A stretch of 45,013 bases of DNA from assembly GCA_938040995.1 (NCBI GenBank), contig CALHZT010000121.1:1-45013 (forward strand). The letters run 5' to 3'. The stretch is from an uncultured Pirellulaceae bacterium. Its GTDB lineage: Bacteria; Planctomycetota; Planctomycetia; Pirellulales; Pirellulaceae. Position 1 is the first letter of the stretch; the number at the start of each line of letters is the position of its first letter. This document shows, one piece after another, positions 1,098 to 32,117 of the stretch. The position numbers were made by a program, and so were the translations under genes. The notes below the pieces were generated by a model. That model did not search any database. It saw only the letters and a list, made by a program, of their open reading frames with translations, and was not told where the DNA came from.

Positions 1098-1468
1098 GGA
1101 TCGTTCGATCCATTAGTGTCGAATCTCCGTTCATGACGACTCAATTGACGGCCTATGGCCGTCTTCCCCGCGAACGCGGGGACCCACTCGAAGCGTATGA
1201 ACGCTCAATGTCTTTCCCAGCATCAAAAAGCCAATCCGATTCAATGGATTCCCGCCTGCGCGGGAAAGACGGAGGAATCTCCGTTCGTGACGACTCAATT
1301 GACGGCCTATGGCGCCTAGGGCCGTCTTCCCCGCGAACGCGGGGACCCACTCGAAGCGTGTTAACGCTCAACGTCTTTCCCTGCATCAAAAAGCCAATCC
1401 GATTCAATGGATTCCCGCCTGCGCGGGAAAGACGGAGGAAGATCACGCAGTAATTTCTCGAACGATCC
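1098..1468. mobile_element. Miniature inverted-repeat element, family 1, copy with internal duplication
   Basis: An 11-bp perfect terminal inverted repeat, GGATCGTTCGA at the left and TCGAACGATCC at the right, bounds 371 bp with no coding capacity. The interior holds strong palindromes: CCCCGCGAACGCGGGG and TTCCCGCCTGCGCGGGAA. The second resembles the widely scattered REP-like palindrome of many bacterial genomes. A single-unit 208-bp copy lies at 30783-30990 and confirms the ends. Flanks are TTG and TTA, compatible with a diverged 3-bp TNA-type target duplication; the second copy has a perfect TAA duplication. It lies 76 bp beyond the stop codon of the giant gene and may end or stabilise its transcript. 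Between tex and this element (898-1097) I see no gene. Confidence 0.85.
1124..1440. repeat. Tandem duplication inside the family 1 element
   Basis: Two near-identical units, 1124-1277 (154 bp) and 1278-1440 (163 bp), lie head to tail. Each runs from TCTCCGTTC to GACGGAGGAA, so each is itself bounded by an imperfect inverted repeat. The second unit has a 9-bp insertion after GGCCTATGG and small substitutions. The other element copy (30783-30990) has only one such unit, so the duplication is specific to this locus. Confidence 0.85.
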
Positions 1469-1544: not shown

Positions 1545-4500
1545 TTACGCTGACCGCTTAAATATGTCCCGGAATCGAGCCCACCGACTGAGCTCCTGGG
1601 CATTGGCCGCTGGCAAGTTTGGTAAATCAGTAGCGCGATCCAGCCGATGGTTGTCGGTCGCCCGAATCGACGCGGGACTTTGCGGCACGCGTTCCTGTTG
1701 CTCCTGTTGCTCCTGCTGCGATGCGACATTGGCATCCACAAAATTCGGCTGGGAATATCGACTGGCCCTAAACACCGGCCTGGATTGCGACTGAGTCGTT
1801 TGGTCGCTCGATGCCGTCTGTTGCTGCAAAGCCGAAGCCGGCGGTGAATTCACAGTCGACATTCGGAGGGAACCTTGCGGCCGTTGCGCCTCAACCGAAT
1901 TCAGTTCTTGCGCGTCGTTCGTTCGTCTCAAGCTACTCGAAAATCGCGACTGTCGCTCGACGCGTGAAAGTTGCCGAGGTTCCTGAGTGCTGACGACGAT
2001 TCCCCCAGCTCCCACCGACTGGCTTGGTGCATCGCCCGAAACACTCGTCGCATTTGACGAAAGAGGCTCCTGAATCGTTTCCTGTGCGACTGATTCTGCA
2101 TTCTCCGCAATCAACCTCGACAGTCGACTGGCGCGAATTCCCGCAGCCGACTGGGCCGGATCGACCGAGAAATTTTGATAGACGCCGCTGTCCGTCGATG
2201 CAAGATAAAGCCGCTTTCCGATCGAATCGAAATCGAACGGGTTCACTCCCGATGTCACCGCAGCCGCATTATTTGCAGCATTGGGATCAGCCCCGTTGGT
2301 TCCGTCATCTGCGATGCTCGCCGAGTTACTGATCGAGCCGATTTCATCGAGAATCTGCACCGCAAACTCGATCGTTCGCGACTCGCCTACGGCAAGAGCA
2401 CCCGCGTTGAACCGGAAGAATCCGTCATCATCCTGCGTCCATCCTGCTGAACTATTGTTGGCATTGAACACGGTACCGGTCGGCAAAGACTCGGTGATGA
2501 CGACTCCGGTCGCATTCTGGTCGCCGACGTTTGTGTAGGTCAATGAGTAGACAACGATGCCGCCAACAAACGCTTGCCGGCCATTGTCCGATTTGGTGAT
2601 CGAAAGATCAGGAGCCGCAATGAGGTTCGTCCTGTCCAACGCACTGTTGTTGGAAGGATCGACATCCGCACCGAGCGCTCCGTCATCAGTGACTGACGCG
2701 GTGTTTACCAGTTCCGTCAATCCAGCTGGCACGCCATCGGCCAACTGAGCCGTCACCGTAAGGACGACGGAATCGCCTGCATTCACGCTGCCAAGATTCC
2801 ACTCGATGGTACCGTTGCCAAGGTTTACGACTCCACCATTGTCAGCGATCACCGTGGCAAAGACACCAGTCGGGAACGAATCGGTGACAACAACACCGCT
2901 TCCATCGCCTGTGCCAACGTTTTGAAGCGTAATGGTGTAAGTCACCGTTTCGCCTGGTGTGACGTCGGTTAGTCCGTCATCTTTGGTCAGCACATAATCA
3001 ACGGTCCCACTCGTTCCGCCGCCGGTACCGCCACCGCCCGTACCGCCACCAGTTCCGCCGCCCGTACCACCACCAGTTCCGCCACCCGTGCCACCTCCAC
3101 CTGTTCCGCCACCTGTTCCACCGCCGGTTCCGCCACCAGTTCCTCCGCCGCCGGTACCACCACCCGTTGTCCCGCCGCCAGCATTACCGGGTTGCCCGGG
3201 AATCGTGTTCGTGTCAGCATCGGTATTGTTGTCTGGCCGTGCGTCGGCTCCATTTCCGGCATCGTCCGCGATCGTCACATTGTTGAGAATCAACGTGACC
3301 GAATCATCAAGTGGATCGTCAACCGACACTGCAAAAGTGATGGTTCGCGTTTCGCCAGCCGTCACCGTCCCGGCAATAAACTCAAAGACGCCACTACCGA
3401 GCGATGTTTCGACCCAGCCGCTGGAACTCCCGGCGGCATCGAAAGAGGTTCCGGCGGAGAGCGTCTCGGTGATGACGACTCCCGTCGCGTCGAGCGTGCC
3501 GTTGTTCCCATAGTCGAGGGTATAAGTCACCGAATCGCCAGCCGCAACGGTCGTGATCCCATCCGACTTGTCAATGAACAAGTCGACAAACGGTACTGCC
3601 GGAGGAGTGAACCGCGTATTGGTATCGCTTGCCTCGTTGTTGGTGCCGTCGGTATCTGCTCCGCTGGCTCCGTTGTCGGAAATTTCTACGCTGTTTGTCA
3701 GCTGCGTTCCTGACGCGGACGGATCATCAACCGTAAGCGCAAAGACCGCCACATAGTTTTGAGTATTGGCTTCGATCGTGCCCACATCCAGCCGATACTC
3801 GCGGCTGCCCGGGAATGTCTCTACCCAACCAGTCGAACTCCGCGCCGCATCGAACGTAGTCCCCACCGGCAAGTGCTCGATCAATACGCCACCGGTCGCA
3901 TCGGCATCGCCGTTGTTGCCGTAAAGAATGGTGTACACCAGCGTCTCGCCGTCAACGAATGTGGTCTGATTGTCTTCCTTGATAACGTAAAGATCGACCG
4001 TGCCCGCGACGGTCACATCGTCACGCACAAAGTTGATATCACTCGCAGAATTGTTGTCCAGCCGCGTGTCGACACCATTCGCATTGTCGTGCGAAATGTT
4101 GACTCGATTCTCAATCGTTTCAATGGTATCGGACAGCGGATCATCCACGAGAATTGCAAATGTGATCGTGCGAGTCTCACCCGGCGCCAGTGTCCCCGCA
4201 TCAAAATCGTAGATATCCAACGAGCCGCGTTGCACCCAACCGCTGTCGCTTCCAACAATGCTGAACGAGGCGCCGAGCGGAACAAACTCTTCCAGTGTGA
4301 CGCCTGTCGCCGCCACATTGCCAAGATTGGTGTAGCTTATCGAGTAGATTATCTGCTCGCCGTCATCGACAAACAGTCTCTGGTCCGTTTTCTCAACAGC
4401 GAGGTCAATGTGCGACCCGGTTGGCGGCGTGAACAGAATATTGGTATCGCTATCCGCGTTGTCCGACAGGTCCGAGTCATTAACGTTCCCTGATCCATCC

Positions 4501-7500
4501 GAGATCTGAACGGAATTCACCAGCTCGGTTACACCACTGGTGACTGGATCGTCGACGCGAACAGCGAACAACAGCAAATTATTCGACACATCGTTCGCTG
4601 CGAGCGTACCGACCTGATATTCAAACACGCCGCTGCCCGCAAACGTCTCGGTCCATCCTGGCGAACTGTTCGACGAATCAAAAGTCGTTCCGACGGGCAG
4701 CGTTTCGGTGATCACGACATTACTGGCGGCACTGGAACCCCAGTTCCCGTACCGAATTTCGTAGACAATCGACTCACCACCGACAAACGTCGATTGCCCA
4801 TCGACCTTGGTGACAAACAAGTCGAACACGTCCACGCCGCTCGCAACTTCCACCACGTTGATATCGATGTCAGCATTGTTATCGCTACGCGCATCAACAC
4901 CGTTGGCTCCGTCGTCCGCGATCGTTACCTGGTTCGCCAGCTCCGTTCCCGCAGCCAACGGCGAATCGACAATCGCGGCGAACGTGATATCCCGCGTTTC
5001 ACCAGCCGCCATCGTGCCCACGTTGAATTCGTAGACGCCACTTCCTGGCGACGTCTCCGTCCATCCGGCTGTACTTCCGCTCGGGTCGAACGACAATCCG
5101 GCGGGCAGCGTTTCAGTGATGACGACTCCCGTGGCCGCGACCGTACCGTTGTTCGCGTAGGAGATTAGATAAACGATGTTTTCTCCTGCCGCCACCACCG
5201 TGCCACCATCCGACTTGGCGATGGACAAGTCGACATGCCCTACGGTCGGCGCGATGTACAGGGTATCAACATCATTGAACGCGTTATCACCCGTGTTCGC
5301 GTCGTCACCGTTGGCCCCATCGTCACGAATGACGACTGTATTCGCCAACTGCGTCGTACCGCTTGCCACGGGATCGTTAACGGTGACTGCGAAAAGAACC
5401 GGCGGGCCCGTTGCGCCCGCGGCGACGGTCCCGACGGAGTATTGCCAGATGCCGCTACCGCTTGCTGTCTCGGTCCAACCAGCCGAACTGTTCGAAGCGT
5501 CGAAGGTTGCACCAGTCGGCAGGACTTCTGTCAGAACGACGCCCGTCGCGTCTTCGTCACCGTTATTGCCATATCGAATTGCGTAAACAATCGCATCACC
5601 TGCCGCGAACGTGACCTGATTGTTGTCTTTGGTGACATACAAATCGACGACGCCAGTCGGAGTCACCGTTCCAAAATCAATCCCGTTGGTGTCAGTGTCT
5701 GTATTATCATCGGGACGCGCGTCCGCCCCGTTCGCACCATCGTCGGCAATCGAAACGCGGTTAATCAGGTTCGCAAACAAGAGTGACAGTGGGTCATCGA
5801 CAGTGACTGCGAAAGCGATGCTTCGAGTTTCACCAGCCGCCATCGTGCCGACGTTGAACTCGAAGACTCCGCTACCAGGCGACGTTTCAACCCATCCGGC
5901 GGTACTGTTCGCCGGGTCGAAGCTGGTACCGCCCGAAAGCGTTTCCGTAATGACGACTCCCGAGGCCGCGATCGTTCCGTTATTCGCATAGTCGATGGTA
6001 TAGATGACCGAATCGCCTTCGGACGAAACCGTCGCAAGGTCCGACTTGGTCACGGCGAGATCGACGTGGTCCGTCGTTGGCGCCGTGTAAAGGTTATCGG
6101 TATCGCTGGCCACGTTGTCAGAAGCGTCCGCATCGGCGCCATTACTGCCGTCATCGCTAATTGAAACACTGTTCGTGACCTGTGTCACGCTGGATGCAAC
6201 TGGATCGTCTACGATCGTCGCGAAGAGAACCACGTTCCCGGAAGAGCCAGCGGCCACGGTGCCAGCATTAAATTCGTAGACGCCACTACCCGGCGAAGTT
6301 TCCAACCATCCCGGCGAGCTGGACGCGGCGTCGAAACTGACTCCGGTGGGCAAGCTCTCTGTCAAAACGACTCCAGTCGCAGCCGTGTCGCCGTTGTTGC
6401 CGTACAAGATCGTGTAAACCAGCGACTCACCGTCCGTAAACGTCAGTCGACTGTCGTCCTTTTCTACAAACAGATTCACCGTACCGGTTCCGACGACTGG
6501 ACCACCAAAGTCGATCGAATTCACATCCGCATCGGAATTGTCATCCGGGCGCACGTCGGCTCCGTTGGCACCGTCATCGGAGATAGAAACGTTATTGATG
6601 ATGTTTGCAAAAAACAGCGGCAGCGGATCGTCGACTGTCACCGCGAACTCAATCGTTCGCGTCTCGCCGGCCGCCATCGTGCCAACTGCAAATTCAAACA
6701 CACCGCTTCCCGGCGACGTTTCTGTCCAGCCACTCGTGCTGTTGGCTGCATCAAAGGCCGTTCCGCCAGAAAGCGTTTCAGTGATCACCACACCGGTGGC
6801 AGCGATCGTTCCGTTGTTCGCATAGTCGATCGAGTAGATGATCGAATCGCCTTCGGCAGAAACAGTAGCTGAGTCGGATTTGTCGATCGCAAGATCCACG
6901 TGGTCCGTTGCGGGCGGCGTGAAGTAGCTGTCTACGTCCGTGGCGGAGTTGTCCGCAGCGTTTCCGTCGGCTCCGTTGCTGCCATCGTCGGAAATCGTGA
7001 CGGTGTTCGACAGCTCGAGCGTGCCGGCAGCGACGGGATCATCGATCGTGATCGCGAACAGCACAATATTGCCATTCGATCCTGCGGCAACGGTACCCGC
7101 ATTGAATTGATAGATGCCGCTGCCCGCAGAAGTCTCCGTCCAGCCCGACGAGCTGGCCAAGGCGTCAAAGCTCGCACCTGCCGGCAACGTTTCTGTCAGG
7201 ATGACTCCAGTAGCAGCCGTATCGCCGCTGTTGCCATACAGGATGGTATACACCAGCGACTCACCATCGGTGAACGTAATCTGGCTGTTGTCTTTTTCAA
7301 CGTAAAGATCAACCGTTCCGCTCACGGGACCACCAAAATCGATCCCGTTCGTATCCGTGTCCGAATTGTCATCGGGCCGAACGTCGGCTCCGTTGGCGCC
7401 GTCATCCGCGATGGAAACGTTATTGATCAGATTGGCGAAGAGCAGTGGGAGAGGATCATCTACAACGACGGCGAATTCAATCGTTCGCGTTTCGCCCGCA

Positions 7501-10500
7501 GCCATGGTGCCAACATTGAACTCGTAAATTCTGCTTCCCGGTGCTGTCTCGGTCCAGCCGCTTGTACTGTTGGCCGCGTCAAACGTCGTGCCGCCGGATA
7601 TTGTCTCGGTGATCACAACTCCGGTCGCCGCGATCGTGCCGTTGTTCGCATAGTCGATTGAGTAAATGATCGAATCGCCTTCGGCGGACACGGTGGCCGA
7701 GTCGGATTTGTCGATCGCAAGATCCACGTGATCGGTCGGCGGCGGAGTGAAGTAGTCGTTGGTATCCGTCGCCACGTTGTTTGTCGCGTCCGCGTCGACT
7801 CCATTGCTGCCGTCGTCCGAAATCTCGACACTGTTGATCAACTGCGTGATGCTCGCAGCCACGGGATCGTCAACTGTGACGGCAAACAAGACCACGTTAT
7901 TGGTGGATCCGGCGGCCAAATTCCCAATCGACAACTCGTAGACGCCACTTCCAGGCAACGTTTCAATCCAGCCGGGTGTGCTTGCCGCGGCATCGAACGT
8001 CGAACCAGCCGGCAAGATCTCCGTCAGCGTAACACCAGTCGCGTCGGCAGTTCCAACGTTTCCGTAGAGGATGGTGTAAACCAGCGACTCGCCATCCGTG
8101 AACGTGACCTGACTGTCATCCTTCGCAACTGTCAGATCGACAAAGTCACCGAGCGTGACGTCATCCCGCTCAACGGCATCGACATCGGCATCACTATTAT
8201 CGTCAGGCCGCGCGTCAGCGCCGTTGGCACCATCATCCGCGATAGAAACATTGTTTACCAATGACGTGATTCCCGCCGCCAGTGGATCGTCCACCGTCAC
8301 AGCAAAAGTCACCGTGCGAGTTTCGCCGGCCACAACCGTTCCCGCCGTAAGCTCGTAGACGCCACTGCCCGCTGCCGTCTCCGACCAGCCAACCGAACTG
8401 TTCGCTGAATCGAATGTCACACCGGCGGGCAGCGTCTCCGTCAAAACGACTCCGGTAGCATCCAGCGTCCCGTTGTTCGAATATTCGATCGTATAGATAA
8501 CGGAATCGCCTTCCGTGACAACCGTGACTCCATCCGACTTGTTAATCGAAAGATCGACATGATCATCGGTCGGTGGCGTATACAGAGCGTCAACATCATT
8601 GAAGGCGTTGTCACTCGTGTCGAAATCGTCACCGTTGGCTCCATCGTCCGAGATGACGATTCTGTTGACGATCTCGTCGATGCCGGCGGCCAAAGGATCT
8701 TCCACCGTGACCGCGAACACCACCGCATTGCCGACCGAACCGGCGGCTACCGTGCCGGCTGCATATTCATAAATGCCAGACCCCGGCGTCGTTTCCGTCC
8801 ATCCAGCAGAACTGTTCGCCGCATCAAACGTCGTTCCGGCAGGAAGTAGCTCCGTCAGCACCACGTTCGTTGAATCGGTGTCGCCGTTGTTTCCATAGAC
8901 GATCGCGTAAACCAGTGACTCACCAGCCACAAAGGTGACTTGACTGTCGTCCTTCGTTACATGGAGATCGACAAAGCCGACGGGAGTGACGTCGTCACGC
9001 TCAACGGAATCAATGTCACTGTCCGAGTTGTCATCTGGACGCGCGTCAGCACCATTCGCGCCGTCATCAGCAATCGAAACGTTGTTGAGCAGCGCACTGA
9101 TCCCAGTCGCCAGAGGATCATCGACCGTCACGGCAAAAGTCACCGTGCGCGTCTCACCAGCGACGACGGTCCCCGCATCCAGCTCGTAGATTCCGCTGCC
9201 CGGTGCTGTCTCTGCCCATCCGGCACTACTGTTCGCCGCGTCGAAGGTAACTCCAGTCGGCAAGGACTCCGTCAGCGTAACACCGGTTGCATCAAGCGTT
9301 CCGTTGTTCGAGTAGGTGATGGTGAACGTCAGCATGTCGCCTTCGCGAACGACATTCACTCCATCACTCTTGTCGATCGCCAGATCAACATGATCCGTCG
9401 CAGGAGCCACAAAAAGAGCATCGGTATCGCTCGAAGTATTGTCGCCCGCATTCGCATCAACACCGTTGGCACCATCGTCCGTGATATTCACAGCGTTCAG
9501 CAACTGCGTAACTCCGGCTGCCAACGGATCCTCAACGGTCACCGCGAACGTTACCACGTTATCGACACTGCCTGCAGCCACCGAACCGGCCGCGTACTGA
9601 TAAACGCCGCTACCGGGCGACGTTTCCAACCAGCCAGCCGAACTGTTTGCCGCATCAAACACGGCGCCCGATGGCAGCGACTCCGTCAGCACCACTCCCG
9701 TCGCATCCGCGTCACCATTGTTACCGTAGACAATCGAGTAAATAAGCGTTTCACCAGCCACAAACGTGACCTGAAAGTCATCCTTTGCCACATACAGATC
9801 GACGCTGCGTTCCTCATCCGGCGGCACATCGTGCTCCGCCGTATTCACATCCGAATCAGAATTATTGTCAGGTCGCGCATCAACGCCGTTCGTGCCATCG
9901 TCAGCAATCGACACACTATTGACCAACTGCGAAATACTCGCATCCAACGGCGCGTCGACCACGACAGCGAACGCAATCGTACGGGATTCGCCCGCCGCAA
10001 GCGTACCAGCGTTGAACTCGTAAACGCCGCTACCTGCAGCCGTTTCCGTCCATCCCGATGCGCTGTTGGCCGCATCAAAGCTCGCACCATCCGGAAGCGT
10101 CTCGGTAACGACGACTCCCGTTGCGTCAACCGTTCCGTCATTCGAATACTCGATGACGTAGACCAGCGAATCGCCATCAGAAACGATGGAGGCATTGTCG
10201 GTCTTGGTAATCGCGAGATCGACATGATCATCGACGGGAGCCACAAAGAGGCTGTTGCTGTCCGAATCCTGATTGTCGTCCGCATTTTCATCCAACCCGC
10301 TTGTTCCGTCGTCCTCGATGGTAACGGTATTGAACAGGTTCGCCACATTCGCGTCGAGCGGATCATCAACAGTCACGGCAAAGACGATCACATTTCCAGT
10401 CGAACCAGCCGGCACGATCCCGGCCTGAAATTCGTACACGCGGCTGCCCGAAGCCGTCTCTACCCACCCCGCATCGCTGTTGGCTGCATCAAACGTCGCA

Positions 10501-13500
10501 CCAGCAGGTAGCGACTCGGTGATGACAACTCCACTTGCATCCTGGTCACCACTGTTTCCGTAAGTGATCGTGTAGTCGATCGACTCGCCATCGGTAAACG
10601 TGGTTTGAAAGTCGTCTTTGACAACATGCAAATCGACTCCCGCGACAAACTGGTCCGTGTCGACATCCTGATTGTTGTCCGGACGCGCATCAGCACCGTT
10701 CGATCCGTCATCGGAGATGGTCGCCGTATTGACAAGCTGCTCAATGCCCGCCGCAGCCCCATCCGTAAACACGGCGAGTTCAATCACGCCGTTCTCACCA
10801 GGATCCAGCGTGCCGAGCGAGAACTCGTAAACGCCACTCCCTGCAGCCGTCTCGACCCAGCCAAACGTGCTGCTAAGATCGAATTGCGAACCGACAGGAA
10901 TCACATCCGTGATCACCACATTGGTCGCAGCCACATTTCCATTGTTTGCGTACGAAAGCTGGTAGATAACAACATCACCAACACTGACGGAGTTCAGAAA
11001 ATCCGTTTTCTCAATCGACAGCTCAACATAGTCACCAACGGGCGGCACCCACAGGTCGTCCGAATCGCTGGCGGTATTGTCGAATCCGTCTTCGTCACCG
11101 CCGTTGAGGCCATCGTCAGCAATCGAAACAATATTCTGTACTGTCGTTTGCCCGCTCGCGAGCGGATCATCCACGATGACGGCAAACGTCAAAACATTGC
11201 CGACCGAACCCGCCGCAAGGTCACCCACGTTGTATTCGAAAATTCCGCTTCCAGCCGCCGTTTCGACCCACCCGATGGCGCTTGCCGCCGAATCAAAGGA
11301 CGTTCCGGCCGGCAGCTCTTCCGTGATGATGACTCCGGTCGCATCCTGTGACCCATCGTTGCCATAGATGATCGTGTATTCGATCGATTCACCAGCCACA
11401 AAAGTCGTCTGACTGTCATCCTTCGTCACAAAGAGATCCGGAGCCGCCAAAAGACCATCAGTATCGGTCGCGATATTGTCTGACGAGTCCTCGTCCATTT
11501 CGTTCGAGGAGATCTCGGCACTATTCGTCAAATCGTCGATTCCAGCCGAAATCGCATCGTCCACCGTCACGGCAAAAGTCACCGATCCCGGTGCGCCGAC
11601 GGCGAGATCACCCACGTTGTACAGATAGGTGCCGCTACCGACAGGTGATTCGTACCACCCCGCGGAGCTTCCCGTAACGTTGAACGTGGCACCGGGCGGA
11701 AGCGTCTCTGTCAGTACGACTCCGGTAGCCGTCGCGGTCCCGTTGTTCACAAACTCGATGACATAAACGACTTCATCACCACCGCTCGCAGCAACCACAC
11801 TGTTGTCCTTGAGAATGGCGAGGTCCACGACCCCGAGAGCATTACCAATATCGTTCGTGTCGATTGCCTCGTTGTCACTCTCATTCTCGTCAACGCCGTT
11901 GGTTCCATCGTCGGAAATGACCACGCTGTTCACGATCTGCGCGACCGCGGCATCAATCGGGCTGTCCACGAGAACTGCGAAATCAACCGTACCATTGTCG
12001 CCGACGGCGAGATTGCCAATCGCGAACTCATAAACACCACTGCCCACAGACGTTTCCACCCAACCCGTGTCGCTGTTCGCCGCGTCAAACGACGTTCCCG
12101 CCGGCAATGTTTCCGTCAGAAAAACCCCGATCGCGTCCTGCGAACCCGCATTCCCATAAGCAATCGAATAAACAAGAGAATCTCCGGCATCCACCGTCAC
12201 ACGACTGTCGTCTTTTGTGACGAACAGATCCGGCGCCGCGTCAATCGGCGTCACATCTGTACCCGTATTGTTGAGATCGTTTGACTCATCACCATTCAGA
12301 TCGTCGTCTTCGATCACCGCCGTGTTCTGCAGGCTATTGAGACCAGCCACCACCGGGTCGCTCACCGTGACTGCGAAACTGACAGTTCCGGAATCGCCTG
12401 CGGGCACGTCACCAATCGTGTAGACCCAGACTCCCGGCGTCGTTTCAACCCAGCCCACGTCACTGTTCCCCGGATCGAAAACGGAGCCAGCCGGAACTGT
12501 TTCGGTAATGAACACGCCTGTCGCACCCCGCGTACCAGCGTTCTCATACGACAGTATGTAGACAACCGTCCCGCCTGGTAACGTCGTGATCCCGCCGTCA
12601 TCTTTCGTCAGCACAAGATCGACTGCCGAAACGACGGGCGTGTCATCCGTCGCCGTGTTGTTTGATGCATCCGGATCGACGCCGTTACTACCATCGTCCG
12701 CGATCATCGCCGTATTGGAAATGGTGTCGCCGTTGTCCAACGTCCCATCCCCGTCGACTGCGAAATCAACCGAACCGATCGTCGCACCAGGCACCGTTCC
12801 AATCGCCAACTCATACACGCCACTGCCCGGTGAAGTTTCGGTCCAGCCGACCGAACTGCTGGCAGCATTAAAAGTCGTATTTGCCGGAAGCGTTTCCGTA
12901 ATGACGACTCCGGATGCACCTTGCGTTCCTGTATTCGAATACGTCAACGTGTAAATGATCGTGCCGGCGGGTGCCGTGCTCACGCCACCATCCGATTTGA
13001 CCAACCCAAGGTTGGGCACGGCAAACACATCATTGACATCCGTCGCAGAGTTATCAGCCGGATCGAGATCCGCGCCGTTGGTACCGTCATCCGAGATCGC
13101 GACCGTGTTGGTAAGTTGGTCGATTCCCGCGGCAATTGGGTTATCAACCGTAACCGCAAACGTGACAGACTCGTCAATTGTTCCCGCGGCGACGGTGCCA
13201 AGCATCAACTCGTAGATGCCACTGCCCGGCGCTGTTTCTGTCCAGCCAACTGTGCTGCCAGACGCATTGAACGAGGTCCCGGTGGGCAACGTCTCCGTCA
13301 ACACAACATTGGTGGCGCCCTGATTTCCGACATTGGAGTAGGTGATCGTATAGATCGTGAACTCGCCGGCATTTAGTAGTGTTAGCCCGTCATCCTTGGT
13401 GACTCGCAAGTCCGGCGCGGCGACAATATCGTCAATCTCGACGAACGAGTTATCCAGCTCGTCCGCATCATCTCCACTTAATCCGTTATCGCTGATTAAC

Positions 13501-15209
13501 ACGTTGTTGATCAGCTGATCAATGCTCGCCGCAATCGGATCATTCACAGTGACCGCAAACACGACACTGCCAACGTCTCCCGAAGCCAACGTTCCCACCT
13601 GAAAGACGTAAACGCCCGGCGCGGTCTCCACCCAGCCCGCATCGCTGTTCACCGCATCAAAGGTCGTCCCGGCTGGCAACGTTTCAGTAATCTCGACTCC
13701 CGCAGAACCTTGATCACCTGTATTCCCGTAATTGATTGTGTAGCTGACGCTATCACCCGAATTGACGAGGGTAACCGTATTGTCTTTGTTGACGAACAGA
13801 TTTGGGCTGGCATCAACGGGCGTCTCCTCAATGAACGCATTGTTGCTTGCATTGTCATCAACCCCATTGGATCCGTCGTCCGAAATCGTGACGAGATTCG
13901 CAATGTTCTCAATTCCGGCGCCGAGTGGGTTATCAACAATCACTGCAAATACAGCGGTACCCATACTCCCCACGGGAAGATTGCCAACCGCGTATTCGTA
14001 GATCCCACTGCCAGGCGAAGTCTCAACCCACCCCGGATCGCTGTTGATCGCGTCGAAAGTCGTTCCGTCGGGTAGATTCTCCGTGACAACCACACCAGAC
14101 GCGTCGGCTTGCCCAAGGTTCGACCAGGTCACATCGTACGACACAAAGCCGCCAACCACTGTGGATAAATCACCATTCGACTTTTCGACAGCAATATCGA
14201 ATGAGAACACTGACGTGATCGGCGTTTCATCCACCGCGGTATTGTTGGTCGGTGGATCGAAACCGTTTCGACCATCGTCGGCGATCATCGCGACATTCAG
14301 AATCTCTGATGTCCCGGCCGGCAGCGGCGAATCAATGTCGATGGCGAATTCGGCAACGCCCACATCACCAGCCGCCATCGTTCCAATAAACAACTCGTAG
14401 ACGCCACTTCCGACCGACGTCTCGGTCCAACCGGCAGTACTCTGGGAAGCGTTGAATGTTGTATTTTCTGGTAGCGTTTCTGTCAGGAACGCACCGCTGG
14501 CCCCCTGGTTCCCAATGTTCAGGTAGTTCAGCGTGTAGACAACCGTATCTCCGGCGGACGCTGAGATTCCCCCGTCCGTCTTGGTGACCGACAGGTTTGG
14601 AGCAGCGAAGAGCGTATCAATCTCTGTCTCCGCATTGTTCGCCGGATTGTCGTCCGGACCGCTCAGACCGTCGTCTGCGATAGATACCGTGTTGACGATC
14701 GAGTCGAGACCGGCGTCAACACTGGGGCCATCAACAGTTACCGCAAAGAAGATCTCGAAGAACTCGGAAAACCCGGGTAACGTCCCGTGCTCAAACTCAA
14801 AGACTCCACTGCCGGGAGCCGTTTCCACCCAACCTGCACTGCTGTTCGTCGGATCGAACGTTGTACCAGCAGGGAGATTCTCGGTGATGACCACGCCCGT
14901 TGCGTCCGCCACTCCGTCATTGATGTACGTAATCGTGTATGTCAAATCATCGCCGGGGAAGATGGTTGACACACCATTCGTCTTCGTGACGAACAGGTCG
15001 GGCCCCGTCGCGAATACTTGCGCGAACGATTCCCCACCACAATCCTGGCAAGGCGCCATGGGGTCTGGATTTTGAAGCGGCTGCGAAGCCAAAAAATGCA
15101 TCGCAGGAGCCGCATCAAAGAGCGTGCGGTCTTCGAGAGATTCGAGCAGGATCTCTCGCGGCTTTTGAGCTTGCGCAGACTTCCGTTTAAGGAACTTGAA
15201 CAGTTGCAT
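1545..15209 (-). CDS. Giant surface protein with 31 DUF11 domains
   Basis: This is a single uninterrupted frame of about 4,554 residues. I chose the ATG at 15209 (MQLFKFLKRKS) because GGAG lies 6 nt upstream; the ORF-track ATG at 15221 has no such site. The N-terminus is basic and then has LLESLEDRTLFDAAP, the planctomycete LEPR-like export segment. From about residue 70 to 4325 I count 31 DUF11 (CARDB/Ig-like) domains of about 135 residues, each with VTKDD..., YTITY.N.G, ATGVVITETLP, GWVET.PGSG and DDG.NG.D...DN. Domains 10-29 alternate between two types. A Gly/Thr-rich linker near residues 4010-4070 separates domain 29 from the last two. A Gln/Ser/Arg-rich tail of about 230 residues follows (starting near NPFDFDSIGKRLYL) and has no recognised anchor. 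The role is probably structural or adhesive at the cell surface; that is inference from the repeat family. There is no catalytic domain. An N-terminal CQDCGG just before domain 1 is the only CxxC I noticed. Confidence 0.93.
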   Translation of the reverse strand: MQLFKFLKRKSAQAQKPREILLESLEDRTLFDAAPAMHFLASQPLQNPDPMAPCQDCGGESFAQVFATGPDLFVTKTNGVSTIFPGDDLTYTITYINDGVADATGVVITENLPAGTTFDPTNSSAGWVETAPGSGVFEFEHGTLPGFSEFFEIFFAVTVDGPSVDAGLDSIVNTVSIADDGLSGPDDNPANNAETEIDTLFAAPNLSVTKTDGGISASAGDTVVYTLNYLNIGNQGASGAFLTETLPENTTFNASQSTAGWTETSVGSGVYELFIGTMAAGDVGVAEFAIDIDSPLPAGTSEILNVAMIADDGRNGFDPPTNNTAVDETPITSVFSFDIAVEKSNGDLSTVVGGFVSYDVTWSNLGQADASGVVVTENLPDGTTFDAINSDPGWVETSPGSGIYEYAVGNLPVGSMGTAVFAVIVDNPLGAGIENIANLVTISDDGSNGVDDNASNNAFIEETPVDASPNLFVNKDNTVTLVNSGDSVSYTINYGNTGDQGSAGVEITETLPAGTTFDAVNSDAGWVETAPGVYVFQVGTLASGDVGSVVFAVTVNDPIAASIDQLINNVLISDNGLSGDDADELDNSFVEIDDIVAAPDLRVTKDDGLTLLNAGEFTIYTITYSNVGNQGATNVVLTETLPTGTSFNASGSTVGWTETAPGSGIYELMLGTVAAGTIDESVTFAVTVDNPIAAGIDQLTNTVAISDDGTNGADLDPADNSATDVNDVFAVPNLGLVKSDGGVSTAPAGTIIYTLTYSNTGTQGASGVVITETLPANTTFNAASSSVGWTETSPGSGVYELAIGTVPGATIGSVDFAVDGDGTLDNGDTISNTAMIADDGSNGVDPDASNNTATDDTPVVSAVDLVLTKDDGGITTLPGGTVVYILSYENAGTRGATGVFITETVPAGSVFDPGNSDVGWVETTPGVWVYTIGDVPAGDSGTVSFAVTVSDPVVAGLNSLQNTAVIEDDDLNGDESNDLNNTGTDVTPIDAAPDLFVTKDDSRVTVDAGDSLVYSIAYGNAGSQDAIGVFLTETLPAGTSFDAANSDTGWVETSVGSGVYEFAIGNLAVGDNGTVDFAVLVDSPIDAAVAQIVNSVVISDDGTNGVDENESDNEAIDTNDIGNALGVVDLAILKDNSVVAASGGDEVVYVIEFVNNGTATATGVVLTETLPPGATFNVTGSSAGWYESPVGSGTYLYNVGDLAVGAPGSVTFAVTVDDAISAGIDDLTNSAEISSNEMDEDSSDNIATDTDGLLAAPDLFVTKDDSQTTFVAGESIEYTIIYGNDGSQDATGVIITEELPAGTSFDSAASAIGWVETAAGSGIFEYNVGDLAAGSVGNVLTFAVIVDDPLASGQTTVQNIVSIADDGLNGGDEDGFDNTASDSDDLWVPPVGDYVELSIEKTDFLNSVSVGDVVIYQLSYANNGNVAATNVVITDVIPVGSQFDLSSTFGWVETAAGSGVYEFSLGTLDPGENGVIELAVFTDGAAAGIEQLVNTATISDDGSNGADARPDNNQDVDTDQFVAGVDLHVVKDDFQTTFTDGESIDYTITYGNSGDQDASGVVITESLPAGATFDAANSDAGWVETASGSRVYEFQAGIVPAGSTGNVIVFAVTVDDPLDANVANLFNTVTIEDDGTSGLDENADDNQDSDSNSLFVAPVDDHVDLAITKTDNASIVSDGDSLVYVIEYSNDGTVDATGVVVTETLPDGASFDAANSASGWTETAAGSGVYEFNAGTLAAGESRTIAFAVVVDAPLDASISQLVNSVSIADDGTNGVDARPDNNSDSDVNTAEHDVPPDEERSVDLYVAKDDFQVTFVAGETLIYSIVYGNNGDADATGVVLTESLPSGAVFDAANSSAGWLETSPGSGVYQYAAGSVAAGSVDNVVTFAVTVEDPLAAGVTQLLNAVNITDDGANGVDANAGDNTSSDTDALFVAPATDHVDLAIDKSDGVNVVREGDMLTFTITYSNNGTLDATGVTLTESLPTGVTFDAANSSAGWAETAPGSGIYELDAGTVVAGETRTVTFAVTVDDPLATGISALLNNVSIADDGANGADARPDDNSDSDIDSVERDDVTPVGFVDLHVTKDDSQVTFVAGESLVYAIVYGNNGDTDSTNVVLTELLPAGTTFDAANSSAGWTETTPGSGIYEYAAGTVAAGSVGNAVVFAVTVEDPLAAGIDEIVNRIVISDDGANGDDFDTSDNAFNDVDALYTPPTDDHVDLSINKSDGVTVVTEGDSVIYTIEYSNNGTLDATGVVLTETLPAGVTFDSANSSVGWSETAAGSGVYELTAGTVVAGETRTVTFAVTVDDPLAAGITSLVNNVSIADDGANGADARPDDNSDADVDAVERDDVTLGDFVDLTVAKDDSQVTFTDGESLVYTILYGNVGTADATGVTLTEILPAGSTFDAAASTPGWIETLPGSGVYELSIGNLAAGSTNNVVLFAVTVDDPVAASITQLINSVEISDDGSNGVDADATNNVATDTNDYFTPPPTDHVDLAIDKSDSATVSAEGDSIIYSIDYANNGTIAATGVVITETISGGTTFDAANSTSGWTETAPGSRIYEFNVGTMAAGETRTIEFAVVVDDPLPLLFANLINNVSIADDGANGADVRPDDNSDTDTNGIDFGGPVSGTVDLYVEKDNSQITFTDGESLVYTILYGNSGDTAATGVILTETLPAGASFDALASSSGWTETSAGSGIYQFNAGTVAAGSNGNIVLFAITIDDPVAAGTLELSNTVTISDDGSNGADGNAADNSATDVDSYFTPPATDHVDLAIDKSDSATVSAEGDSIIYSIDYANNGTIAATGVVITETLSGGTAFDAANSTSGWTETSPGSGVFEFAVGTMAAGETRTIEFAVTVDDPLPLFFANIINNVSISDDGANGADVRPDDNSDADVNSIDFGGPVVGTGTVNLFVEKDDSRLTFTDGESLVYTILYGNNGDTAATGVVLTESLPTGVSFDAASSSPGWLETSPGSGVYEFNAGTVAAGSSGNVVLFATIVDDPVASSVTQVTNSVSISDDGSNGADADASDNVASDTDNLYTAPTTDHVDLAVTKSDLATVSSEGDSVIYTIDYANNGTIAASGVVITETLSGGTSFDPANSTAGWVETSPGSGVFEFNVGTMAAGETRSIAFAVTVDDPLSLLFANLINRVSIADDGANGADARPDDNTDTDTNGIDFGTVTPTGVVDLYVTKDNNQVTFAAGDAIVYAIRYGNNGDEDATGVVLTEVLPTGATFDASNSSAGWTETASGSGIWQYSVGTVAAGATGPPVLFAVTVNDPVASGTTQLANTVVIRDDGANGDDANTGDNAFNDVDTLYIAPTVGHVDLSIAKSDGGTVVAAGENIVYLISYANNGTVAATGVVITETLPAGLSFDPSGSTAGWTETSPGSGVYEFNVGTMAAGETRDITFAAIVDSPLAAGTELANQVTIADDGANGVDARSDNNADIDINVVEVASGVDVFDLFVTKVDGQSTFVGGESIVYEIRYGNWGSSAASNVVITETLPVGTTFDSSNSSPGWTETFAGSGVFEYQVGTLAANDVSNNLLLFAVRVDDPVTSGVTELVNSVQISDGSGNVNDSDLSDNADSDTNILFTPPTGSHIDLAVEKTDQRLFVDDGEQIIYSISYTNLGNVAATGVTLEEFVPLGASFSIVGSDSGWVQRGSLDIYDFDAGTLAPGETRTITFAILVDDPLSDTIETIENRVNISHDNANGVDTRLDNNSASDINFVRDDVTVAGTVDLYVIKEDNQTTFVDGETLVYTILYGNNGDADATGGVLIEHLPVGTTFDAARSSTGWVETFPGSREYRLDVGTIEANTQNYVAVFALTVDDPSASGTQLTNSVEISDNGASGADTDGTNNEASDTNTRFTPPAVPFVDLFIDKSDGITTVAAGDSVTYTLDYGNNGTLDATGVVITETLSAGTSFDAAGSSSGWVETSLGSGVFEFIAGTVTAGETRTITFAVSVDDPLDDSVTLILNNVTIADDAGNGADARPDNNTDADTNTIPGQPGNAGGGTTGGGTGGGGTGGGTGGGTGGGTGGGGTGGGTGGGTGGGTGGGTGGGGTGGGTSGTVDYVLTKDDGLTDVTPGETVTYTITLQNVGTGDGSGVVVTDSFPTGVFATVIADNGGVVNLGNGTIEWNLGSVNAGDSVVLTVTAQLADGVPAGLTELVNTASVTDDGALGADVDPSNNSALDRTNLIAAPDLSITKSDNGRQAFVGGIVVYSLTYTNVGDQNATGVVITESLPTGTVFNANNSSAGWTQDDDGFFRFNAGALAVGESRTIEFAVQILDEIGSISNSASIADDGTNGADPNAANNAAAVTSGVNPFDFDSIGKRLYLASTDSGVYQNFSVDPAQSAAGIRASRLSRLIAENAESVAQETIQEPLSSNATSVSGDAPSQSVGAGGIVVSTQEPRQLSRVERQSRFSSSLRRTNDAQELNSVEAQRPQGSLRMSTVNSPPASALQQQTASSDQTTQSQSRPVFRASRYSQPNFVDANVASQQEQQEQQERVPQSPASIRATDNHRLDRATDLPNLPAANAQELSRWARFRDIFKRSA
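3003..3190 (-). repeat. Low-complexity GGGT/GGGGT linker repeat
   Basis: Within the giant gene this stretch encodes an alternating GGGTGGGGT-type glycine/threonine linker between DUF11 domains 29 and 30. On the plus strand it appears as ccgccaccagttccgccg-like units. Codons for the same residues vary (gtacc, gttcc, gtgcc), so the protein sequence seems to be kept rather than a recent DNA slippage tract. It probably acts as a flexible hinge between the long domain array and the C-terminal pair. Confidence 0.85.
3200..11450 (-). repeat. Higher-order two-domain (about 825 bp) repeat array in the giant gene
   Basis: Ten tandem dimers (domains 10-29) make up this segment. One domain of each pair has VDLYV.KDDSQVTF..GESLVY.I.YGNNGD and the ...AGS.GNVV.FAVTV core. 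The other has DHVDLAI.KSD, YANNGT or YSNNGT, AAGETRTI.FAV and DARPDDNSD. Equivalent positions (the 'gcaagatccacgtg' stretch of the DHVDL domain) recur near 6890, 7716, 8548, 9380 and 10211, a period of about 825-830 bp or 275 residues. Domains 19 and 21 are nearly identical over their first half, pointing to recent duplication or gene conversion. Domains 1-9 do not show the alternation. Confidence 0.85.
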
Positions 15210-15273
15210 CCCAGACTCCATTCTGAACTGTTAAAACGACTCAATCACAGGAATGATCCAGTCGTGTGGCAGA

Positions 15274-27373: not shown

Positions 27374-27390
27374 GACTTATTGGAAATCTT

Positions 27391-27809
27391 GTAACCGTTC
27401 ACGCGGTCAAGGGGCTGGCTGGGGTGTTGTAAAGTTGGCCTTGCAGCGGACTTTACGTTGCCCAAAACGGACACGAGCTGTTGCAGATACATCGACGCGT
27501 CTGGCCGCTCCTCCCCGTCGCTTGGGCTCCGCCCCTCCTCACGCGACACGTGGTATGCCCTGCTCATTCTTCGCATGACACCACTGCGTCGGAGGAGGGT
27601 TGCTTGCGACGGGCGGCCGAGGTCAGGCAAACGGCTGCAATAAATCTGGCGTGAGCACAAACGCCACTCAAAATTGAATTTACAACACCCCGGGGTCTGG
27701 CTCAATTTTTCGGCGGCAATTTGACTTATTTCGCTTTGCGGACAAACGCCGAAAATTTGTGTCTGCCCCTCTCGAACCTGACGAAACGTCAATATCCGTG
27801 AACGGTTAC
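27391..27809. mobile_element. Miniature element family 2 (IS66-like ends), copy A, interrupted
   Basis: The ends are a perfect 13-bp inverted repeat, GTAACCGTTCACG ... CGTGAACGGTTAC, flanked by an 8-bp direct repeat GAAATCTT (27383-27390 and 27810-27817). GTAA termini and 8-bp target duplications are the hallmark of the IS66 family, so this is probably a non-autonomous derivative; there is no transposase gene. Removing the inner family 3 element leaves about 138 bp, matching copy B at 30699-31045. The core contains its own long stem (AAATTTTCGGCG and CGCCGAAAAATT). It lies 17 bp after the symporter stop codon. Confidence 0.88.
27421..27691. mobile_element. Miniature element family 3, nested in family 2 copy A
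   Basis: A perfect 13-bp inverted repeat, GGGGTGTTGTAAA ... TTTACAACACCCC, bounds 271 bp with no convincing gene. The flanks are GGGGCTGGCT on the left and GGGGTCTGGCT on the right, an approximate 10-bp target duplication with one indel. Copy B of family 2 has the same site uninterrupted (on the reverse strand, GAGCCAGACCCTTGCC), so the boundaries follow from comparison within the window. Confidence 0.8.
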
Positions 27810-27907
27810 GAAATCTTTGCAATTTTTCCGGCCAGATTCGATACCGCTGGACTCTTTCTCTTTGCGTCAGTCACCGAATCTGCGAAACCACTGCCGGGAG
27901 TGTATCT

Positions 27908-28845: not shown

Positions 28846-28890
28846 GCGAGGATCTTTAGCAAGATCCACTACGAGCTATCCGGCCGTCAT
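28846..28890 (+). repeat. 45-bp dispersed palindromic repeat, left copy
   Basis: The copy starts GCGAGGATCTTTAGCAAGATCC, with a perfect GGATCTT/AAGATCC stem and a 4-nt TAGC loop, followed by CACTACGAGCTATCCGGC and GTCAT. The reverse complement occurs at 30635-30680 with only a few differences. The pair flanks the PQQ-propeller gene in inverted orientation. Confidence 0.8.
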
Positions 28891-29231
28891 CCCGTGAGTT
28901 TTTAGCGTGGTCCAACTCTCAATTGAGACCAACGCGCTGCCGCCCGGAATGAGCCTCGACAAGTCAGATTTGGGCAAACGCGGCGAGCCAGTGTCTCGCG
29001 AGTCGCCCTGGGTTCCTTAGCCCCGGAGATTGAGCAGTGTGTTTGGAACTTTTGAGATGATCCGGGATCCAGGCGATTTGGTTGGCCACCTCATTTCGGT
29101 CTCCGTACGATGAAGTTGTTGGGCATTTTGGCTCGTCGAATATCACACATCACAGAATCCATTGCCAAAGAGCCAGAAAATATGAGAGACTTTCCGGACC
29201 GGAATACAACCGCCGTATCTAAAGGCAAGCC
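28891..29231. other. Intergenic leader of the PQQ-propeller gene
   Basis: These 341 bp contain no convincing ORF on either strand, no tRNA-like fold that I could see, and no assignable promoter. The last bases (AAAGGCAAGCC before the ATG) supply a moderate ribosome binding site. Confidence 0.4.
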
Positions 29232-30581: not shown

Positions 30582-30634
30582 AGATTCGAAGTCCCGATTC
30601 AAATGAGAGTCGGACCAGATTTGAAATTCACGGC

Positions 30635-30680
30635 ATGACGGCCGGATAGTTCGTAGTGGATCTTGTTAAAGATCCTTCGC
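30635..30680 (-). repeat. 45-bp dispersed palindromic repeat, right copy
   Basis: This is the reverse-complement partner of 28846-28890, 46 bp with one extra base (GCGAAGGATC instead of GCGAGGATC). The hairpin stem GGATCTT/AAGATCC is kept, while the loop differs (TAAC versus TAGC). It begins 53 bp after the PQQ-protein stop codon and may act as its transcript end. Confidence 0.8.
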
Positions 30681-30698
30681 GATACAGTTAATCACTTC

Positions 30699-31045
30699 GT
30701 AACCGTTCGCGGACAATGACGTTTCCTCAGGCTCGAGAGGATCAGGCACGAACTTTCGGCGTTTGCCCGCAAAGCGAAATAAGGATCGTTCGATCAATTA
30801 GTGTCGAATCTCCGTTCATGACGACTCAATTGACGGCCTATGGCCGTCTTCCCCGCGAACGCGGGGACCCACTCGAAGCGTGTTAACGCTCAATCTCTTT
30901 CCCTGCATCAAAAAACCAATCCGATTCAATGGATTCCCGCATGCGCGGGAAAGACGGAGGAAGATCAGGCAGTAATTTCTCGAACGATCCTAAGTCAGCT
31001 TGCCCCGAAAAATTGAGCCAGACCCTTGCCCGCGTGAACGGTTAT
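30699..31045. mobile_element. Miniature element family 2 (IS66-like ends), copy B, interrupted
   Basis: The left end is GTAACCGTTCGCGG and the right end CCGCGTGAACGGTTAT, with one substitution in the last base. The flanks are perfect 8-bp direct repeats ATCACTTC (30691-30698 and 31046-31053). A family 1 element plus its 3-bp duplication interrupts it; removing both leaves 136 bp that aligns along its full length with the reverse complement of copy A. The right target duplication contains the stop codon of pdxA. Confidence 0.88.
30783..30990. mobile_element. Miniature element family 1, single-unit copy, nested in family 2
   Basis: This 208-bp element has perfect 11-bp ends (GGATCGTTCGA/TCGAACGATCC) flanked by TAA on both sides. 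The uninterrupted site is visible in family 2 copy A (reverse strand, GCGAAATAAGTCAAATTGCC), so insertion duplicated TAA. The interior shows the same two GC-rich hairpins as the 1098-1468 copy, the second with loop ATGC instead of CTGC. Confidence 0.9.
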
Positions 31046-31046
31046 A

Positions 31047-32117
31047 TCACTTCTTACCAGCGGTCAGTTTTGCCGCCAACCGCATGGCGCTCTCCAAACT
31101 GGAAATCTCAGCGACGCCCTGCCACGCAATATCAAATGCTGTCCCGTGATCAACCGAAGTGCGAACGATCGGCAAACCAAGAGTTACGTTCACCGCAGTA
31201 TCAAACGCAAGCGCCTTTAACGGGATCAGCCCCTGGTCGTGGTACATGCAAACGTACACATCGGTTGCTTCGCGCTGGGATGGCAGAAACGCCGTATCGG
31301 GCGGCATCGGATCGCTAATATTGATGCCTTCACTTTTCGCCGCGTCAATTGCCGGCTGAATTACTAACTCTTCTTCCCTGTTTCCAAACAAACCGTGCTC
31401 ACCAGCGTGCGGATTCAAACCACAAACAACAACCCTGGGATCACGACCACGAATTCGGCGCAAAGCGGCTGCGCTTAACCGGATGGCTGACAGAATTCGC
31501 TCAGTCGTTAACTGCGACGTAACATCGCCAAGCCCAATATGTGTGGTCACTAGCGCGCAACTGATGACGTCGGAAGTCATCAGCATGCAATAGTCATCCG
31601 TCGCGGTCTGTTCTGCGAGAATTTCGGTATGACCGGGATGCGGAATCCCCGCCGCGCTCAACGCTTCTTTGTTAATCGGGGCTGTGCAAATCGCATCCAC
31701 GTCACTGGACTTTGCAGCGTCGATCGCCGCCAGCAGGTAATCGTATGACGACTGGCCAGCGACTGCCGAGACCACGCCAGGCGATATGGCGCCCGGATCC
31801 AGGTGGCTAATATTCACAATCGCTGGAGCCGCCGTCGAATGCCACCGATCATCGCCAAGTTCGTAGCTCGTGGCCGGCAAAGACAGATTCAAACGACTGC
31901 CCACCGCCTTGAGAATGGACAAGTCGCCGAAAATGAGCGGAACGCAGACATCCGCGACAACCTGTTCGGCCAGCAGTCGCAGGCAGATTTCCGGCCCGAC
32001 CCCACAAGGATCTCCCATCGTTAAGGCAATTCGCGGCAGTTCTGATGACGAGTTCTTCAAAGCTGGATTCAAGCCCGTGTTTTCCAATCTATATTTTGTG
32101 TAAACCGGTGACGACAT
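31047..32117 (-). CDS. pdxA: 4-hydroxythreonine-4-phosphate dehydrogenase
   Basis: The protein has 356 residues. It should oxidise 4-phosphohydroxy-L-threonine with NAD+ in the deoxyxylulose-dependent pyridoxal phosphate pathway. PRIALTMGDPCGVGPEI opens the conserved core at about residue 28. The divalent-metal histidines are in TTHIGLGD (His193), NPHAGEHG (His237) and YHDQGL (His293), with spacing like that of the E. coli enzyme. SVDHGTAFDIAWQG closes the active site. The first 27 residues are extra relative to usual family starts, so a downstream start is possible; the ATG at 32117 has no clear Shine-Dalgarno site and a palindrome lies directly upstream. The stop codon is inside the target duplication of a miniature element. 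No DUF1537 kinase neighbour suggests the PdxA2-type threonate pathway. Confidence 0.93.
   Translation of the reverse strand: MSSPVYTKYRLENTGLNPALKNSSSELPRIALTMGDPCGVGPEICLRLLAEQVVADVCVPLIFGDLSILKAVGSRLNLSLPATSYELGDDRWHSTAAPAIVNISHLDPGAISPGVVSAVAGQSSYDYLLAAIDAAKSSDVDAICTAPINKEALSAAGIPHPGHTEILAEQTATDDYCMLMTSDVISCALVTTHIGLGDVTSQLTTERILSAIRLSAAALRRIRGRDPRVVVCGLNPHAGEHGLFGNREEELVIQPAIDAAKSEGINISDPMPPDTAFLPSQREATDVYVCMYHDQGLIPLKALAFDTAVNVTLGLPIVRTSVDHGTAFDIAWQGVAEISSLESAMRLAAKLTAGKK

Follow-up and report, generated by a model that had tools for sequence, protein, structure and literature searches.

A miniature inverted-repeat element nested within another beside pdxA in an uncultured Pirellulaceae bacterium

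Bacterial miniature inverted-repeat elements (MITEs) are short, non-coding, multicopy, intergenic sequences with terminal inverted repeats and target duplications (reviewed in PMC10969869), and the three elements described here, F1, F2 and F3, are like them in all of these features; the text of that review contains neither the term "IS66" nor the term "nested". Two insertion sequence families are among the closest known counterparts of these elements. IS66 family members of the single-ORF, DUF6444 + DDE_Tnp_IS66 type, with their non-autonomous derivatives, share with F2 their GTAA-type ends and an 8-bp duplication, and in the genomes G479 and G431 the 13-bp ends of F2 surround IS66 transposase remnants, whereas F2 is only 137 bp long, codes for nothing and has an interior unrelated to the transposase gene. 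The IS1031-like group of the IS5 family shares with F1 target duplications of the TNA type as well as short inverted ends that start with G, and IS5-group elements with TNA duplications are present in the same bacterial family, but the ends of F1 were not found on any IS5-type element and its interior is a pair of palindromes. These palindromes resemble the CGTC-tagged REP sequences, which are defined by a CGTC tag, an 8–9 bp stem, a 4–5 nt loop and a CCA tail (PMC3733652). The dRS3 repeat of Neisseria is of the CGTC-1 type, no associated transposase was found for CGTC repeats in that study, and its Results list them in five phyla, Planctomycetes not among them (PMC3733652). F1 is like dRS3 in its CGTC, 8-bp stem, 4-nt loop, CCA tail and inverted pairing, and unlike it in that 11-bp inverted ends enclose the pair and the target is duplicated.

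The window analysed is a stretch of 45,013 nucleotides from a metagenome-assembled genome (MAG) of an uncultured Pirellulaceae bacterium (5.66 Mb in 425 contigs, 86.5% complete). We interpret its repeats as a stack of non-autonomous inverted-repeat elements in which IS66-derived F2 came first and F1 and F3 entered F2 copies later, and we give this reading a probability of about 0.86.

The nested copy at pdxA and its sister copy

A sequence-only reading of the window had placed the 208-bp F1 inside F2 copy B, with exact ends and a 3-bp TAA duplication, and the boundaries, the 11-bp ends and the junction were all borne out (Table 1). The copy B junction reads GCGAAATAA-F1-TAAGTC, where both copy A and an F2 consensus built from seven empty F2 copies read GCGAAATAAGTC; the TAA duplication is exact. 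The nested F1-in-F2 insertion is real and well resolved, and it is a new example of an already known kind. Copy A had been described as uninterrupted, which is correct only for the F1 target site: F3 sits elsewhere in copy A and accounts for its length of 419 bp (empty F2 units are 137 bp), but the F1 site there is empty, so the empty/filled argument stands. The window therefore holds two F2 copies ~3 kb apart with a different element interrupting each, F1 in copy B and F3 in copy A.

Table 1. Positions of the nested elements and their target duplications in the window.
Feature	Positions	Strand	Remarks
F2 copy B, putative IS66-type MITE, GTAACCGTTCGCG...CGTGAACGGTTAT	30699–31045	+	347 bp with F1 included; BLAST to 137-bp F2 consensus, positions 1–85 and 82–136
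Left 8-bp target duplication of F2 copy B, ATCACTTC	30691–30698	+	identical to 31046–31053
Right 8-bp target duplication of F2 copy B	31046–31053	+	includes pdxA stop codon (31047–31049, minus strand)
F1 element, 208 bp	30783–30990	+	perfect 11-bp terminal inverted repeats GGATCGTTCGA/TCGAACGATCC
Left TAA, F1 target duplication	30780–30782	+	
Right TAA, F1 target duplication	30991–30993	+	
CGTC-type (dRS3-like) palindrome 1, CGTC-TTCCCCGC-GAAC-GCGGGGAC-CCA	30845–30871	+	definition from PMC3733652
CGTC-type palindrome 2, CGTC-TTTCCCGC-GCAT-GCGGGAAT-CCA	30930–30956	-	opposite orientation to palindrome 1
F2 copy A, 419 bp, carries F3	27391–27809	-	F1 target site (GCGAAATAAGTC) empty
Left 8-bp target duplication of F2 copy A, GAAATCTT	27383–27390	+	identical to 27810–27817
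Right 8-bp target duplication of F2 copy A	27810–27817	+	
F3 element, 271 bp, ends GGGGTGTTGTAAA/TTTACAACACCCC	27421–27691	+	nested in F2 copy A
Left copy of 11-bp duplication at F3, AGGGGCTGGCT	27410–27420	+	9/11 match with 27692–27702 (GGGGTCTGGCT)
Right copy of 11-bp duplication at F3, GGGGTCTGGCT	27692–27702	+	
Second F1 copy, 371 bp	1098–1468	+	internal tandem duplication, F1 positions 1–180 then 24–208; flanks TTG/TTA

The vitamin B6 gene pdxA (open reading frame 31047–32117, minus strand; PF04166 match, E 9e-102) has its stop codon inside the right 8-bp repeat of copy B, so the F2 insertion left pdxA its stop, and the genes on both sides of copy B are intact. The region is also flanked by an inverted pair of 78-bp repeats (28849–28926 and 30599–30676, 86% identical, with a GGATCTTnnnnAAGATCC hairpin at the start) that constitute a fourth repeat family; parts of it recur at locus L009, and the sequence adjacent to it recurs at L336. 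Farther off, a 4558-aa open frame (1545–15221, minus strand) consists of roughly 400-bp repeats and apparently encodes a very large repetitive protein; a 130-nt unit is present in 22 copies within that stretch.

Copy number, ends and parent families

The F1 end GGATCGTTCGA and the F2 end GTAACCGTTCACG have 156 and 170 exact occurrences in the MAG, respectively, against 0 for the reversed control in each case, so their occurrence is not due to chance. There are at least 41 F1 matches in the MAG, and F3 matches more than 30 further places there, alone or within F2. Among 149 genomes of the same family F1 was found solely in this MAG, and weak matches in three others (G014, G077 and G019) cover one internal palindrome alone; a match to F2 in G041 lies inside a coding sequence and was rejected as chance. 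In plasmid and phage collections neither F1 nor F2+F3 nor copy B had a match, and Rfam had none in the window. In an order-wide scan two genomes of the same order, G742 and G858, had GGATCGTTCGA 118 and 182 times, far over controls; as F1 homologues these sites were dropped, the sampled contigs holding unpaired sites and no F1-like element. At L311 two GGATCGTTCGA sites, one of them with one mismatch, lie in similar leaders.

F2 is a short non-coding multicopy sequence whose inverted ends, GTAACCGTTCACG, begin with GTAA, and its 8-bp target duplications are strong: 10 of 28 are exact and 17 of 28 agree within one mismatch, where shuffled means are 0.07 and 0.47. The ends of F2 are IS66 ends. 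Identical 13-bp ends enclose 852–866 bp at three loci of G479 (L287 and its parallel copies L288 and L291) and 1500 bp in G431 (L292), and the frames of L287 and L292 match DUF6444 (E 7e-11 and 1e-9) and, C-terminally, DDE_Tnp_IS66 (E 3e-5, over the cut-off). These IS66 copies are decayed and belong to distant planctomycetes, and L287 and L292 are without an intact flanking duplication; L088, an IS66 element from the family to which this MAG belongs, has GTAACCGTTCG ends (GTAACCGTTCGG) and an exact 8-bp repeat, CTCTGTCA. With GTAA ends, an 8-bp duplication and a transposase element with the same ends, albeit a degenerate and distant one, F2 is, to judge from these sequence comparisons, best explained as an IS66-derived MITE. 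An IS66 gene (PF03050) was not found in the MAG, at 86.5% completeness; MAGs tend to lose IS elements. Two further genomes, G485 and G363, contain GTAACCGTTCACG 107 and 39 times, and several of their contigs stop just past such ends, which suggests abundant IS66-type elements or shells in them.

F1 is likewise short (208 bp), non-coding and multicopy with inverted ends, and its 3-bp duplication is statistically moderate among the MAG copies and clear in empty/filled comparisons. Its boundaries were constant across the genome-wide copies sampled, where differing ones would have counted against the sequence-only reading. TNA-type flanks, the other point on which that reading had staked itself, do predominate but are often imperfect: an exact TTA or TAA repeat flanks 12 of the 31 oriented copies (TAA/TAA 8, TTA/TTA 4, TAA/TTA 2, TTA/TAA 0). 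Exact 3-bp repeats of any kind (13 of 31) are barely above the composition-preserving shuffle mean of 8.9 because TTA and TAA dominate the flanks, and the informative part is the agreement between TTA and TAA, which match left to right in 12 of the 14 copies having both flanks of these types (Fisher about 0.015, calculated by hand). The F2 empty/filled comparisons are stronger evidence for the duplication than these flank statistics.

Six F1 copies (L009, L019, L025, L327, L021 and the window copy at 1098) have the flank mismatch TAA/CAA or its complement TTG/TTA; it is always a transition at the element-proximal base, which random decay does not explain. An F1 subfamily with a head-to-tail internal duplication comprises the second window copy (1098–1468) and L327, L331, L334, L335, L345 and L346; its junction runs from near F1 positions 180–187 to 24–30, and L346 has two such junctions.

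Searching for full elements with the same ends, as had been proposed in order to name the parents, gave IS66 for F2, while the parent of F1 cannot be named. It was not found in the 149 family genomes; none of 30 IS5-group (DUF4096) loci of the family that were inspected has F1's ends; the MAG yielded neither DUF4096 nor end-matching DDE_Tnp_1 transposases; and the stretches around ~20 unpaired F1 ends proved, with the exception of chance matches at L339 and L342, to be F1 copies with a mutated or missing partner end. Since no IS5-type element carries its ends, we do not file F1 as an IS5/IS1031 member; it is a TNA-duplicating MITE that is possibly IS5/IS1031-like, a reading suggested by the TNA duplication and by the presence of such elements in relatives. 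F1 and F2 code for no protein, and searches of the MAG gave no candidate transposase, in agreement with the earlier view that both are non-coding and non-autonomous.

F3 (271–284 bp) is also short, non-coding and multicopy with inverted ends, and it has good 11-bp target duplications, often of the AGN7CT type, of which 7 of 15 agree within two mismatches against 0.80 in shuffles. It enters F2 at position 108–118 in both relative orientations, with a second site near position 40–49.

Recurrence, relative age and proposed history

Four loci have F1 at F2 position 82–85, namely the window, L016, L020 and, with the relative orientation reversed, L337, and the empty/filled comparison has both flanks intact in the window, L020 and L337 and one F2 arm in L016. 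In a tree of F1 copies, which rests on a short alignment and has weak support, L016 and L020 form a pair that includes neither the window copy nor L337. At least three independent F1 insertions have probably struck one and the same F2 base, apparently from three F1 lineages.

Could copy B have come ready-made, as a 347-bp F2+F1 unit that formed at another site when F1 entered F2 and that then transposed to a place beside pdxA? The shared F1 position in L016, L020 and L337 would fit such a course, as would an F2+F3 composite that occurs with one common junction and orientation in at least six loci, so that either composites may move or this site was repeatedly hit. However, copy B has an F1 that falls with L002, an F1 outside F2 to which it is 98.6% identical, and apart from those of L016 and L020, and its F2 arm is just 87.1% and 82.3% identical to the L016 and L020 arms, so we consider this course unlikely. 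That F2 arm is moreover among the most diverged: it agrees with the consensus at 90.6%, where the median is 95.4%. With a diverged F2 and an F1 so close to the non-nested L002, F2 looks old and F1 recent, and copy B is most simply read as an old F2 into which F1 inserted recently and separately, the order that had been proposed from the nesting itself.

On the reading that we prefer, the stack of successive insertions, the MITEs would have been moved by transposases acting in trans, as follows: an IS66 transposase would have put F2 at the pdxA stop codon, the 8-bp duplication preserving the stop; later a TNA-duplicating transposase, possibly of the IS5/IS1031 kind, would have placed F1 at a preferred TAA in F2; and in the sister copy 3 kb off F3 would have entered F2 at a different preferred site, leaving the 11-bp duplication.

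Palindromes inside F1 and self-complementary interiors of other shells

The interior of F1 conforms to the CGTC-REP definition (above). All 103 of the CGTC motifs in 310 kb of sampled MAG sequence lay in F1, a sample that is biased, since it was chosen largely through F1, F2 and F3; in the relatives G014 and G077 the same palindromes form free pairs that are without F1 ends. Such free pairs, the two CGTC-type palindromes that make up the F1 core and the F1 copies that are without a clean 3-bp repeat would suit movement by a RAYT (HUH) transposase, with F1 as a REP/REPIN-like repeat rather than a DDE-type MITE. Against this, F1 is bounded outside the palindromes by perfect 11-bp inverted ends, and the empty/filled comparisons show that it gives a 3-bp duplication; RAYT/IS200-type movement is not known to leave a target duplication. 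CGTC repeats have, in addition, been reported as unlinked to transposase genes (PMC3733652), and we regard movement by a RAYT as quite improbable. In the MITE interpretation the CGTC palindromes would be passengers copied by the transposase of F1. A chimeric join of repeats during metagenome assembly is very improbable: many of the 425 contigs end near these repeats and the flanks of some F1 copies are unmatched, but against it stand the exact outer 8-bp duplication, two intact flanking genes and the inner TAA duplication, which is likewise exact and is seen again in other contigs.

In other planctomycetes the ends of F2, flanked by 8-bp repeats that are exact or nearly so, surround unrelated interiors of strong self-complementarity. 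Among the GTDB matches listed these shells include L158 (186 bp, ACAGAATC twice), L205 (132 bp, GCCCCAGG twice) and L156 (246 bp, 8-bp repeat with one mismatch); further ones are L302 and L303 (273 and 275 bp, G279) and L298 (142 bp, G363), and in L164 (125 bp) the ends are paired and the flanking repeat is offset. The interiors examined fold better than shuffled sequences, with z values of -9.5 (L164), -6.2 (L205), -6.1 (L302), -3.5 (L298) and -2.7 (L158, cut at 145 nt), and the values for F2 and the F1 core are -3.6 and -4.8. Most non-planctomycete matches to the pattern, among those listed, are without a paired end and probably due to chance. The GTDB pattern scan was unsystematic, covering the matches listed, so the shell pattern is a lead and not a result. 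It is tentatively conceivable, though in our estimation the less probable case, that IS-type ends serve in Planctomycetota as generic shells ferrying REP-like palindromes, the IS66-type shell with many unrelated ones and the F1 shell with CGTC.

If the shell pattern holds, it suggests that transposase-less CGTC palindromes can spread as cargo between ordinary IS ends. Every nested insertion provides an exact empty site, so that the ends of the elements and the relative order of their activity are fixed without experiment, and young elements here repeatedly take the same base of older elements as their landing site.
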